Source: a virus. Taken from it: a stretch of 64,000 nucleotides of DNA. Below the pieces are notes generated by a model, which was not told the DNA's origin, ran no database searches, and saw nothing but the letters and a program-made list of their open reading frames with translations. The translations under genes were made by a program, and so were the position numbers. Each line of letters begins with the position of its first letter. The first letter of the stretch is position 1. The DNA is taken from IMG/VR virus record IMGVR_UViG_3300047462_000185, positions 1 through 64,000 of that record; one strand, given 5' to 3'. Shown in pieces: positions 39,028 to 63,178 of this stretch.

Positions 39028-39187
39028 CACGCTGCTGACCTGCCCGCCGGCCGTCATGATTCCGGAGACGCTGAACAGCGACGCCGATTTCGTGGACTGG
39101 ATCATGGATGACCGCGCCGCCGGCGATGAGTGCCGCACCAAGCTTGGCATCGTGAAGGGCATCGAAGAGGAAGGACCGACACCATGA
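38915..39187 (+). CDS. outer-membrane spanin (Rz1-like) lipoprotein
   Basis: This 90-residue protein is encoded mostly inside the Rz-like gene in a different frame. It has a signal sequence and a lipobox-like FVSAC, so Cys22 should be lipidated. A Pro-rich segment follows (APRPPIPDTLLTCPP), which is usual for Rz1 proteins. The gene extends 160 bases past the i-spanin stop and overlaps the endolysin start (ATGA). Confidence 0.75.
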   Translation: MRFLRPLAVSRVLLLACFVSACQAPPESILAPRPPIPDTLLTCPPAVMIPETLNSDADFVDWIMDDRAAGDECRTKLGIVKGIEEEGPTP

Positions 39188-55813: not shown

Positions 55814-55921
55814 TCCTGTCTCCTTCGATTGTTTGGGGGTGTGACGAGTCCGAAACGGCAATCGTCACGGAATAGATATGGTGCGCAGATCGGCCAAAAT
55901 CAACGAGTTGGGGCCTGGCGA

Positions 55922-55935
55922 CTCATTTGCATGTG
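55922..55935. promoter_or_regulatory. 14-bp palindrome copy 10 (CTCATTTGCATGTG)
   Basis: The right half is perfect and followed by TTTTTTT; the left half is degenerate. It lies 108 bases before the first leftward gene. Confidence 0.4.
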
Positions 55936-56002
55936 TTTTTTTGTTCGGGCTTGCACGGGCGCCGGGTGCGGGATTAGGTTCTCGGCTTCGGTCCAAATGA
56001 AA

Positions 56003-56029
56003 ACCCCCCGGCCTGGCGGGCCGAGGGGT
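56003..56029 (-). terminator. leftward terminator-like hairpin in the control region
   Basis: On the minus strand ACCCCTCGGCC pairs with GGCCGGGGGGT (one mismatch) around five bases, followed by TTTTCATTT. No leftward gene lies just before it, so it may end a short RNA that starts further right. Confidence 0.45.
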
Positions 56030-56179
56030 CTGAAGGGATCGATCAATTCGCTTGGCTGTTACCGCAGCCTTGCGGCGATGCTGGGGGCGTCGGCCCCGGC
56101 CCGGACTGATCCCGAGTCGCTTAGGCTTGGGATATATGGGCTTTTCAGCCTCGTCGCAAGGCCTTCCGCAACGCGAAAG

Positions 56180-56193
56180 CACACATTGCTGTG
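56180..56193. promoter_or_regulatory. 14-bp palindrome copy 11 (CACACATTGCTGTG)
   Basis: Followed by TTTTC. It lies 16 bases before the ATG of the replication initiator gene. Confidence 0.55.
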
Positions 56194-56209
56194 TTTTCAT
56201 GGAGGGTCG

Positions 56210-57277
56210 ATGCATTCGTCGTTCAACGCCCCGGCCTGCTCTTGGGCATTTTCAATCACAGCGCCCTCGGCGCACGCAAAGCTGCTGTTGGTAGCGGTGG
56301 CTGCGCATGCGGATCAGGACGGGCTGTCGAAGGTCTCGATCACGCGGTTGGCCGAGATGACGGATATGAGCTTGCGGGGCGTTCACAACGTCCTGGCCCA
56401 ACTTGAGCGGGCACGCCTGATCGCCGGCGAGCGAGTGCCGGGCATCGTGACGGCCTACAGAATCAAATGGCGTGGCACCGCCAAGGAAATGGAGACCCCT
56501 GCACCGGATGCAGGGGTGGTTGTCGGAACTCCTGCACCGGATGCAGGGGTGGTTGTCGGAACCCCTGCACCGGATGCAGGGGTGGTTGTCGGAACCCCTG
56601 CACCGGATGCAGGGGTTCGCGCGCGCGTAGATTCTGAATCTCAGAGAGAGAAAGAAAGAAAGGAAGTAAGCAAGTCCTCAGATTCTTCTCCGCTTCGCTA
56701 CGAAGAATCTGAGACCCCCCTGCCCCCCACAGAAATTCCGACAGCGGCACAACTCGCCAAGGCTGAGATTGGCGGCAGGATGCGGGACATTTGGAACGCG
56801 GTGGTCAAGCCGTTCCCGCATTTTGCCCAGTCGAAGTGGCTCACCCCGAAGCTGCTCAATCTCGCGGTCGAGCGGTTCCAGCACGAGTTCAACCGCAGCT
56901 TCGAGCAGTGGGAAGCCTATTGCCGCAGGTTGACCAGGAACGCGTGGCTCCGCGGCGAACGTCCGGACGACAGGTCGTGGCGCCCCAGCATCGAGTGGGC
57001 CATCCAGGCCGACACGGTGCTGAAGGAGGCCGAGGGCCGCTACCCGCCCGACCCGGAGCCGAAGCCCCAGGTCGTGCAGCCGATGCACGACGTCGATCCC
57101 ACCCAGGACCCGATCTGGGGCAAGCCGAACAGGATCAAGCTCGAGATCGCGCTGGCGATGCAGCGCCCCGTGATCGACGACGCCAAGCTCCAGGAGCTGT
57201 CGCGCGACTACAAGGCGGCGCTGGTCGAGGCCAGAGCCGCCCAGGCCGCGCTGAGCGGGGCGGTGGCCCATGTCTGA
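56210..57277 (+). CDS. replication initiator-like protein with internal iterons
   Basis: This 355-residue protein starts at ATG 56210 after GGAGGG. The N-terminus is a winged helix-turn-helix of the replication type: SAHAKLLLVAVAAHADQDGL, VSITRLAEMTDMSLRGVHNV and LAQLERARLIAGERV. Residues 95-135 are four copies of TPAPDAGVVVG encoded by 33-base DNA repeats. The C-terminal part is helical with Trp residues (WNAVVKPFPHFAQSKWLTPK) and would bind the helicase. The initiator gene precedes the primase-helicase gene, as O precedes P in lambda. Confidence 0.75.
   Translation: MHSSFNAPACSWAFSITAPSAHAKLLLVAVAAHADQDGLSKVSITRLAEMTDMSLRGVHNVLAQLERARLIAGERVPGIVTAYRIKWRGTAKEMETPAPDAGVVVGTPAPDAGVVVGTPAPDAGVVVGTPAPDAGVRARVDSESQREKERKEVSKSSDSSPLRYEESETPLPPTEIPTAAQLAKAEIGGRMRDIWNAVVKPFPHFAQSKWLTPKLLNLAVERFQHEFNRSFEQWEAYCRRLTRNAWLRGERPDDRSWRPSIEWAIQADTVLKEAEGRYPPDPEPKPQVVQPMHDVDPTQDPIWGKPNRIKLEIALAMQRPVIDDAKLQELSRDYKAALVEARAAQAALSGAVAHV
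56495..56616 (+). repeat. four 33-base direct repeats, iteron-like
   Basis: Units begin at 56495, 56528, 56561 and 56594 (the last is 23 bases). Each contains the dyad CCCCTGCA-ccgga-TGCAGGGG; the second unit has one base changed. Unit length keeps the reading frame. The repeats lie within the initiator gene. Confidence 0.85.
56617..56713 (+). other. candidate replication origin: AT/purine-rich segment plus dyad
   Basis: After the iterons comes a purine-rich, relatively AT-rich stretch (56627-56676, with AGAGAGAGAAAGAAAGAAAG). It is followed by an inverted repeat with 12-base arms (CTCAGATTCTTC at 56677-56688 and GAAGAATCTGAG at 56702-56713). Iterons, AT-rich block and inverted repeat come in the same order as in the lambda origin inside gene O. 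Confidence 0.55.
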
Positions 57278-59177
57278 CGCTCGGCCCGACGAGACCCTGG
57301 AAGATGCGCTGGGGCGGCACGGCATCCAGCTGCCCGGCGCGCCCAAGGCTGGGCACACCTACGGCGGCCCACGCGACCGGCGCCAGGTCATGTGCCCGCA
57401 TTGCAATGGCGGGAGGTCCCGCGAGGCCAACTTCTTCGTCACGATCGACGCGGACGGCCAGGGTGCGGTGTGGGTGTGCCATAGCGCCAAGCGCTGCGGG
57501 TGGACCGGGTCGGTGCGCCTGCAAAATGCACCCCATATCAAGCGCGCCAAGGCGCCTCGCCCGATCCGCCGGCCAGAGCCGGAGCGTGACCCGCAGCTGC
57601 CCGAGCAGACCATTGCCTACTTCGCGGCGTTCGGGGTGCCGCTCGAGACGCTTGAAGAGTTCGGCGTGTTCCGCACCGTGCGGCGCTTTCCGGTCATGGA
57701 CGCAGAGGGGCGCTTCACCGACGAGAAGCTGCCTCGCCCCTGTATCGCCTATCCGTATTACCGCGGCGGCGAGTTGGTGAACTGCAAATACAAGACGGTT
57801 TACCCCAGCGGGAAAAAGGCCTTCGCGCAGGAGTGGGGCGCCGAACGGACGATGTTCAACATCGATGCGTTCGAGTCGGATGACATCGGTTACATCGTCG
57901 AGGGCGAGGACGACGTCCTGGCGATGCGACAGTGCTACCGCCAGGTCACCACGCTGCCCGACGGCAGTCCTTCGGCCAAGAAGCACGAGGAACCGGAGCA
58001 GCCCTACGACCCTGACCAGGACGACGATGATCGCTACGAGGCGCTGCGCAACGAGCCGAAGATCTTGAACCTAAAGAAGGTCGTGCTGTGCGGCGACGCC
58101 GATGAGGCCGGGGCGCGGCACATGGAGCAGATCGCGCGGCGCATCGGCAAGGAGAAATGCTGGATCGTGCGCTGGCCCACCAACTGCAAGGACGCCAAGG
58201 ACACGTTGAGGCTATATGGGCCAGAGGCATTGTTCGCCACGGTCGAGGCTGCGGTGCCCTACCCGATCGACGGGTTGGCCGATGTCGATGACGAGGAGAT
58301 CGCCAGCTATAGAGCCGGCCTCGACGAGAAGCGCATCACGTGCGGCATTTCGCAGATCGACCGCTACCTATCGCTCGCCGATTCGGGTCGCAACTTCATC
58401 GCCTGCACCGGGATACCGGGTCACGGCAAGACCGCGTTCTGGGTCGCGTTATCCGTGCTCTATGCTGAGACCAACACCGACTTCCACACCGTCATGTTCT
58501 CGGGCGAGATGGAGGTGAAGGAGATCGTCGCGGCGATCGCCTCGGCGCATACCCAGAAGCCATTCTTCGATGGGCCGGCCGGCGAGGGCATCAGCACCGA
58601 CGAGCTGGTCGATCATGTGCTGCCCTGGATGCGGCAGCACTACACCTTCATCGAGCCGGAGGACAGCAGGGGCGACAGCCCTCCGGTCGACTGGGTCGTC
58701 GAGAAGGGCCGCATCGCGATCCGGCGCACCAAGGCTAAGCTGTTCATCGTCGATCCGTGGCAGGAGATGGACATGTGCTACCCGGAACGGTGCAGCAAAT
58801 CCATGTCGGCCTGGATCGGCGATCAGCTGCGCAAGTTCCGCTACTTGGGCCGGACCGAGCGGTGCAACGTGGTCTGTGTGGCGCACCCGTCGAAGTTGAG
58901 GCGCGACAAGGACGGCAAGCTGCCGATCCCTGAGGGCTACGATATCATGGACAGCCAGCAGTGGTTCTCGGTGAGCCGCACCGGCATGACGATTTACAGG
59001 CCGGGCGATGACAGCAGCCCCGAAATGAAGGTGCGGGTCTGGAAGGCGCGCTACAGCCAGTTCGCGATGAGGGGCGACACCTCGGTGCGGTTCAACAAGA
59101 CGACGAAGCGGCTCTACCCCCCTCTGACCCAGGCCGACATCGATTCGGGGCGCGCCTGGGGCAGCGACGCGGCTTAG
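57270..59177 (+). CDS. bifunctional primase-helicase
   Basis: This 635-residue protein has an N-terminal zinc-binding part (VMCPHCNGG and CHSAKRCGW). A toprim domain follows (IGYIVEGEDDVLAMR and VVLCGDADEAGARH). The C-terminal DnaB/gp4-like helicase has Walker A TGIPGHGKT near residue 380 and KLFIVDPWQEMD as Walker B. VCVAHPSKLRRDKDGKLP follows. It would unwind DNA and make primers at the fork, as T7 gp4 does. The eight-base overlap with the initiator gene suggests coupled translation. Confidence 0.92.
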   Translation: MSDARPDETLEDALGRHGIQLPGAPKAGHTYGGPRDRRQVMCPHCNGGRSREANFFVTIDADGQGAVWVCHSAKRCGWTGSVRLQNAPHIKRAKAPRPIRRPEPERDPQLPEQTIAYFAAFGVPLETLEEFGVFRTVRRFPVMDAEGRFTDEKLPRPCIAYPYYRGGELVNCKYKTVYPSGKKAFAQEWGAERTMFNIDAFESDDIGYIVEGEDDVLAMRQCYRQVTTLPDGSPSAKKHEEPEQPYDPDQDDDDRYEALRNEPKILNLKKVVLCGDADEAGARHMEQIARRIGKEKCWIVRWPTNCKDAKDTLRLYGPEALFATVEAAVPYPIDGLADVDDEEIASYRAGLDEKRITCGISQIDRYLSLADSGRNFIACTGIPGHGKTAFWVALSVLYAETNTDFHTVMFSGEMEVKEIVAAIASAHTQKPFFDGPAGEGISTDELVDHVLPWMRQHYTFIEPEDSRGDSPPVDWVVEKGRIAIRRTKAKLFIVDPWQEMDMCYPERCSKSMSAWIGDQLRKFRYLGRTERCNVVCVAHPSKLRRDKDGKLPIPEGYDIMDSQQWFSVSRTGMTIYRPGDDSSPEMKVRVWKARYSQFAMRGDTSVRFNKTTKRLYPPLTQADIDSGRAWGSDAA

Positions 59178-62203: not shown

Positions 62204-63178
62204 ATGCCTCAGCACTTCCTCCTGTCAGCAAAGGCCCGGACGCTCTCGCTAGCGTCGGTGCTGCGCATGACGGACGAACAGGCTGAGACGGCCTTCATCC
62301 GCATCCGCTGGGCGGCGACCGAAGGCAAGCCGGTGTGCGTCCATTGCGAGTGCCCGACCGTGTGGGACTGCCGCAAGGCGAATGGCTTGCCCCGCTGGCG
62401 CTGCAAGGCGTGCCGCAAGAGCTTCTCAATCACCAGCGGCACGATCTTCGCTTCCCGTAAGATGCCGCTGCGCAACTACCTCGCGGCCATCGCGATCTTC
62501 GTCAACGAGGTCAAGGGCAAGTCGGCGCTGGCGCTGTCCCGCGATCTCGGGTGCCAATACAAGTCGGCCTACGTCCTTGCGCACAAGCTGCGCGAGGCGA
62601 TGGCGTCCGAGTTGAAAGGGCTGCGGCTGGGCGGTCCCGGCCGCGTGGCCGAAGTCGATGGCGGCTACTTCGGCGGCTACGTAAAGCCGTCCAACCGCGT
62701 CGAGAACCGCCGTGATCGCCGACTTGCCAAAAACCAGAACGGCAAGCGCCAGGTGGTCGTCGTGGTCCGCGAGCGCGAAGGCCGCACCCTTCCCGCAGTG
62801 TTCAAGTCGGAAAGCGCCGCACTCGGCTTCATCGCCCGCAGCGTCGCCAAGGACACCCAGATGATGGCCGATGAAGCCCCGTCATGGAACGGGCTGCATG
62901 CGCGGTTCGCCATGCAGCGGATCGACCATCAGGCGATGTATTCGGACCGGGCCGGGGTCTACACGAACGGAGCCGATCGCCAGGGCGAGACCGAACCGGA
63001 GCAGGACAAGGTCTCAGACATCATCGCCGGGCGCGCGCTGGCCTGTCTCGAACACGTCCGGAAGGTGCGGTTCGGCGAGGCGTCGGCAAATTTCCAGATC
63101 TCGGATAGCGACAATCTTCCCCTCATCGTGAATATCACGGTCAGCCTCGACCGCAACAAATGGACGCGGCACACCTGA
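62204..63178 (+). CDS. chimeric IS1595 (ISXO2-like) transposase, C-terminus replaced
   Basis: Of 324 residues, the first 255 match IS1595-type transposases. A zinc ribbon (CVHCECPTVWDCRKANG, then CKACRKSFSITSGTIFASRK) comes first. The DDE-type core follows, with EVDGGYFGG as the first Asp and MMADEAPSWNG as the second. After MYSDRAGVYTNG the family's FFSRLRR block and third catalytic acidic residue are missing. Instead a 63-residue unrelated tail follows (QISDSDNLPLIVNITVSLDR). It should not be able to transpose. I see no matching terminal repeats or target duplication around it. Confidence 0.7.
   Translation: MPQHFLLSAKARTLSLASVLRMTDEQAETAFIRIRWAATEGKPVCVHCECPTVWDCRKANGLPRWRCKACRKSFSITSGTIFASRKMPLRNYLAAIAIFVNEVKGKSALALSRDLGCQYKSAYVLAHKLREAMASELKGLRLGGPGRVAEVDGGYFGGYVKPSNRVENRRDRRLAKNQNGKRQVVVVVREREGRTLPAVFKSESAALGFIARSVAKDTQMMADEAPSWNGLHARFAMQRIDHQAMYSDRAGVYTNGADRQGETEPEQDKVSDIIAGRALACLEHVRKVRFGEASANFQISDSDNLPLIVNITVSLDRNKWTRHT

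Follow-up and report, generated by a model that had tools for sequence, protein, structure and literature searches.

Does a cluster of dyads buried inside a phage gene mark the site where replication of the phage genome starts? The window analysed here, which covers the first 64 kb of a virus record of 106,637 bp, carries such a cluster within the gene at 56210-57277, and the original prediction read it as a lambda-style replication origin. Our comparisons favor this reading. The locus is very probably a replication origin with the lambda layout, nested in its own initiator gene, and would be a new, well-supported example of a design already known. The reading rests on the anatomy of the locus, the homology of both replication proteins, the uniqueness of the array, the layout shared with lambda and with relatives, and the retention of the dyads at the DNA level in those relatives.

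An O-like initiator gene precedes a primase-helicase gene

The gene at 56210-57277 (plus strand) has a GGAGGG ribosome site directly 5' of its ATG at 56210 and encodes a protein of 355 aa, P0001. In profile searches, residues 9-278 of P0001 match phrog_345, 'replication initiation O-like' (E 4.7e-13), with further matches to the phage initiator profiles phrog_1032, phrog_270 and phrog_5810. The predicted domains are an N-terminal winged-helix/HTH domain at about residues 9-77, a linker encoded by the repeats and the purine-rich block described below, and a conserved C-terminal domain at about residues 185-280. The HTH is weak in Pfam, where HTH_36 is matched under the cut-off (E 0.0025). Lambda O also matches phrog_345 (E 5.2e-17), together with Phage_rep_O and phrog_277, neither of which was matched by P0001 in the Pfam and phrog profile searches. 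Judged by these profiles, P0001 is outside the lambda O family proper and related to it at the broad O-like level. The end of the initiator ORF, including its stop codon, is overlapped by the ORF at 57270-59177 (plus strand), encoding a phage primase-helicase, P0002, with a zinc finger, TOPRIM and a DnaB_C-like domain (phrog_239, E 2.4e-54; Toprim and DnaB_C). The phrog_345 and phrog_239 matches bear out the proposed order of an initiator and a primase-helicase.

On the other side of the initiator gene, a leftward divergent operon encodes, by profile matches, SSB, Erf, a YqaJ/RecE-like exonuclease and a ParB-like protein, and an integrase is found near 87.5 kb of the record. Searches by tblastn or pattern scan of phages, plasmids, viral contigs and genome contigs gave no close relative of P0001, and P0002 had no relatives in viral contigs. 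By annotation, no O-like gene is noted in the annotated parts viewed of the Brevundimonas phages that share the portal. A search of solved structures returned no relevant match, and the AlphaFold model of P0001, built without an alignment, is poor (mean pLDDT 43.8).

The initiator gene and the leftward recombination operon are separated by a divergent intergenic region at 55862-56209. A strong GC-rich hairpin at about 56000-56032 (minus strand; RNA fold z -2.72), followed by UUUUCAUUU, points left just ahead of the initiator gene. It could be the end of a short leftward RNA, in a position like that of lambda oop. A consensus scan of 55862-56209 found no promoter or terminator and did not flag the hairpin.

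One array of dyads is found in the record

The array occupies 56495-56616 and, by TRF and repeat search, has a period of 33 with 3.7 copies and a 97% match. Four 33-base direct repeats with dyads had been proposed; the dyads and the array stand, but the array consists of three 33-bp units, after which a fourth dyad of 23 bp lacks the spacer. Each dyad has the form ACCCCTGCA-CCGGA-TGCAGGGGT, with 9-bp arms around a 5-bp centre. Iteron 1 (56495-56517) reads ACCCCTGCACCGGATGCAGGGGT. Iteron 2 (56528-56550) reads ACTCCTGCACCGGATGCAGGGGT and differs by a single C-to-T change, which falls at a third codon position. Iteron 3 lies at 56561-56583, and the dyad of iteron 4 (56594-56616) extends to 11-bp arms (56592-56618). 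Even with 5 mismatches allowed, no further copy is present across the 106,637-bp record. In a scan of the whole 106-kb record for families of nearby similar palindromes, the array scores 88 and the runner-up 36, and the initiator ORF alone among 78 ORFs of the record reaches at least 36. It is also the one strong TRF array in the window; the arrays in L003 and L004, which cover most of the remaining record, are minor.

The strict core of the dyads, TGCA-N5-TGCA, occurs 9 times in the record including the array, against 0.45 expected. Outside the array the cores lie at 57071, 7414, 70089, 70571 and 96981, of which 70089 and 70571 are part of a separate leader element. The site at 57071-57091, GTCGTGCAGCCGATGCACGAC, is a perfect, lone dyad with 8-bp arms, still within the initiator gene and 455 bp downstream of the iterons. 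It has the iteron core and spacing and may be a distal fifth site. A mobile palindrome shared among viruses was considered and rejected: 35 viral contigs contain the exact dyad pattern, and its presence just once in each suggests chance occurrence.

A purine-rich block and an inverted repeat follow the array

In the nearest-neighbour profile, the stretch at 56628-56708 is the least stable of the initiator gene, which makes it a candidate unwinding element. The 80-bp window from 56628 is the second least stable in the record, with 0.0% of gene windows less stable. At the left edge of this melt block lies a short dyad, AGATTC-T-GAATCT (56629-56641), and the word GAATCT is common to this dyad and to the larger inverted repeat that follows. 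Between them is the purine-rich block CAGAGAGAGAAAGAAAGAAAGGAAGTAAGCAAGTC (56642-56676, plus strand), which is 86% purine and 60% AT in a genome of 36% AT; at 30, 35 and 40 bp alike, the most purine-skewed, or strand-asymmetric, windows of the record are found here. The block had been described as purine/AT-rich. It is indeed purine-rich and of low stability, but 'AT-rich' holds only in a relative sense, since the 97-bp segment is 53% AT.

The inverted repeat, CTCAGATTCTTC-N13-GAAGAATCTGAG, spans 56677-56713. Its perfect 12-bp arms (56677-56688 and 56702-56713) enclose a 13-nt gap. Perfect inverted repeats with arms of at least 12 number just 6 in the record, this one included, and shuffling the local 100 nt 3000 times gave none with 12-bp arms. 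All of these elements lie inside the initiator ORF, in agreement with the original prediction.

The arrangement is that of the lambda origin

In lambda, each 19-bp inverted repeat binds one O dimer, and the adjoining 40-bp A+T-rich region opens (PMC5043065; PMC7466680). The lambda record (NC_001416) has four annotated iterons at 39034-39118 inside O, followed by ACAAAAGACACTATTACAAAAGAAAAAAGAAAAGA and then GTCAGAG-N14-CTCTGAC. The lambda sequence thus contains the layout attributed to gene O in the original prediction, in which four dyad iterons lead into a purine/A-rich block and then an inverted repeat. As a positive control, our detector finds the 4 lambda iterons, with a palindrome-family score of 48 for O. 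The window resembles ori-lambda in its four dyad iterons, the 5 bp between their arms, the melt block, the inverted repeat and the location in the initiator linker. In addition, the next replication gene overlaps the end of the initiator gene in both, and both initiators match the same O-like profile.

The two loci also differ. The iterons are spaced 20, 24 and 23 bp apart in lambda and 33 bp apart here, and their sequences are unrelated, as had been stated (TCCCTCAAAACGAGGGA here and CCCCTGCACCGGATGCAGGGG in lambda). The partner protein here is a primase-helicase with TOPRIM and DnaB_C, not a P-type helicase loader, and both the phage and its host are unrelated to the lambdoid phages. The window also departs from another known design. 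In the PICI-type origin (PMC6092414), an AT-rich region located 3' of the initiator gene has an iteron set on either side, whereas the array of the window is inside the gene and lies entirely to one side of its melt block.

Relatives keep the layout while the iterons change

The comparison set of 35 O-like genes was drawn from alphaproteobacterial genomes, with one gene from a viral contig. With a score cut-off of 36 that was picked after the scores had been seen, 11 of the 35, from 9 of the 27 genomes or records, carry a palindromic repeat family, and none of 51 neighbouring ORFs does (Fisher p 1.7e-5); the other 24 genes score below 36 with this strict detector, some owing to imperfect repeats. 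Any score above 0 is reached by 18 of the 35 and by 2 of the 51. Of 19 genes in which repeats are visible, 15 have their least stable DNA 3' of the iterons (p 0.007); the iteron limits were likewise set post hoc, some by eye. A spacing of 5 bp between half-sites fits the window array and four relatives (L102, L104, L118 and L120), and in lambda it is one of the two best fits. Iteron sequences mostly differ between phages, and the copies are often in different reading frames. When the N-terminal domains of seven such proteins are aligned, A9, W12, A13, K24 and R56 are invariant, and the recognition-helix region varies. By these comparisons, the putative plan of an origin in the initiator linker is frequent among alphaproteobacterial O-like genes, and layout and half-site spacing persist as the iterons change.

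Two genes, L114 (genome G789) and L115 (genome G765), come from the same family as Acidisphaera and are informative about the protein. Both have a C-terminal domain homologous to that of P0001 and a primase-helicase homologue directly downstream. In both, iteron-like repeats are followed by a purine block and then by a short inverted repeat (AGAGC..GCTCT), as in the window. The iterons, however, are of other sequence (TTCCCCACCGGTGGGGAA; CCTGTCACG), and the N-terminal DNA-binding domain of L114 is visibly unlike that of P0001. This suggests a replication module whose C-terminal half stays with the helicase and whose DNA-binding half may be exchanged together with its sites. Together with the O-like profile, the primase-helicase and the lambda order, the relatives with this layout support the lambda-style origin that was originally proposed.

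In relatives, the dyads are retained as DNA

The repeats encode copies of the peptide TPAPDAGVVVG, and recent slippage could have expanded this protein linker with the DNA dyads as a by-product. Near-identical, in-frame copies are the expected product of such an event, and the peptide itself fixes many pairings: the palindrome score averages 35 over synonymous shuffles of the initiator gene. The observed score, however, is reached in 0 of 400 of these shuffles, and the gene's count of five TGCA-N5-TGCA sites in 0 of 5000, with the caveat that copies arising by duplication are not independent of one another. For a single unit to pair perfectly at its third codon positions, p is ~0.036 given the peptide and the codon usage of the phage. 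Since the four copies are nearly identical and the peptide forces many pairings, the window by itself accommodates both selection and recent duplication, and the proposed constraint on the DNA, as opposed to the protein, takes its force from the relatives.

Mixed-frame dyads without a repeated peptide are found in four of them. L102 has four dyads, TGGTGAACCCAGTTCACCA, with spacings of 23, 22 and 23 in alternating frames. L104 has five, GGGCGCAGGAGATGCGCCC, in mixed reading frames, and L109 four, TACCCAGAATGGGTA, in alternating frames. L120, from the alphaproteobacterial genome G510, is 31% identical to P0001 over residues 6-159 and, like it, has TGCA-N5-TGCA cores in the linker, then an A-rich block. 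Its five exact sites lie within ~90 bp, 16-23 bp apart and in all three frames, a count matched by 0 of 5000 synonymous shuffles; there are none elsewhere in the L120 locus, and the C-terminal half of the protein is unlike that of P0001. Because the core recurs five times in three frames without a repeated peptide, the DNA appears to be what is kept. The original prediction raised the case of relatives that keep the peptide and lose the dyads; in L120 the reverse is seen. We therefore consider slippage alone a very improbable account.

Other roles for the dyads

Dyads beside an HTH protein would also suit a repressor, and the sites might be operators through which this protein or another regulator autoregulates transcription, with no origin involved. 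The scattered extra copies of TGCA-N5-TGCA in the record fit such a role. The array, however, lies 285 bp inside the gene rather than at a promoter, and the upstream region 55862-56209 has no TGCA-N5-TGCA site. Operators would also leave the melt block, the inverted repeat, the primase-helicase and the layout shared with lambda and the relatives unexplained, and we regard this possibility as highly unlikely.

We attach similarly little credence to a copy-number or handcuffing element that titrates the initiator, with replication loaded elsewhere in the genome. The five core sites outside the array and a cumulative GC-skew minimum at 39.3 kb are in its favor, and the skew check proposed originally does not single out the position of the array. 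On the other hand, the minimum falls where gene orientation changes, and the extremes of both GC and AT skew, at 39-40 kb, track gene orientation. Moreover, the record has no comparable second array, and a low-stability block adjoins this one.

Least probable of all are RNA or single-strand hairpins (attenuation, single-strand initiation or a rolling-circle type site): the strand folds far above shuffles (z -7.84), but good folding is expected of any perfect-dyad array, the hairpins lack a following T-run, no Rep nickase was seen adjoining, no Rfam match reaches the gathering score (the sub-threshold microRNA matches are caused by the dyads), and relatives with the same layout, e.g. L053 and L116, have weaker dyads.

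A proposed mechanism

For the origin reading, we infer dimer binding, melting, helicase recruitment and use of the site as a start. Dimers of the N-terminal winged helix would bind the four dyads, whose arms are 5 bp apart. The clustered initiator complex might then stress the DNA and open the low-stability, purine-rich block that adjoins the array on its 3' side, with the inverted repeat bordering or stabilizing the opened region. The C-terminal domain of the initiator, or the open single strand, could recruit the phage primase-helicase encoded next door, which would start the forks. A more specific version is tentative, and we lean somewhat against it. In this version the lambda plan would run without a loader: a swappable N-terminal winged helix of the O-like initiator would read phage-specific dyads of fixed geometry, with half-sites 5 bp apart, within its own gene, and the conserved C-terminal domain would directly recruit the phage primase-helicase in place of a loader for the host helicase. 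This phage, L114 and L115 would share the combination.

If the origin reading is correct, comparison alone has mapped, to ~200 bp, where replication starts in a 106-kb alphaproteobacterial virus that is uncultured. In addition, these loci would provide natural initiator-iteron pairs for studying how winged-helix specificity changes when the target sits within the same gene.

Other features of the record

A ~60-nt leader is repeated before eight small ORFs on the minus strand, at 69.4-74.6 kb of the record (L003:5414-10610). Each of the eight copies has, in order, a variable hairpin, a conserved GCCGGC hairpin, AAAGG and the start codon. The stem of the first hairpin differs on both of its sides between copies (e.g. 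GCTGGA..TCCAGC, GCTGCA..TGCAGC and CCCGCA..TGCGGG), and the element looks like a multi-copy structured 5' leader. In the large terminase gene (record 76459-79035; L003:12459-15035), an in-frame insertion matches LAGLIDADG_3 and Hom_end, with an Intein_splicing match under the cut-off; on these domain matches it is a predicted intein. A dense cluster of 29 predicted tRNA genes (record 93395-97833; L004:9395-13833) is joined by a tmRNA candidate with the tag ANDNTGMGAVRLAA. Finally, an IS1595-family transposase is encoded at 62204-63178 of the window. Its kin in Acetobacteraceae/Rhodospirillales match just residues 1-258, so that its 3' part looks altered, and this kinship suggests a host resembling the acetic acid bacteria.
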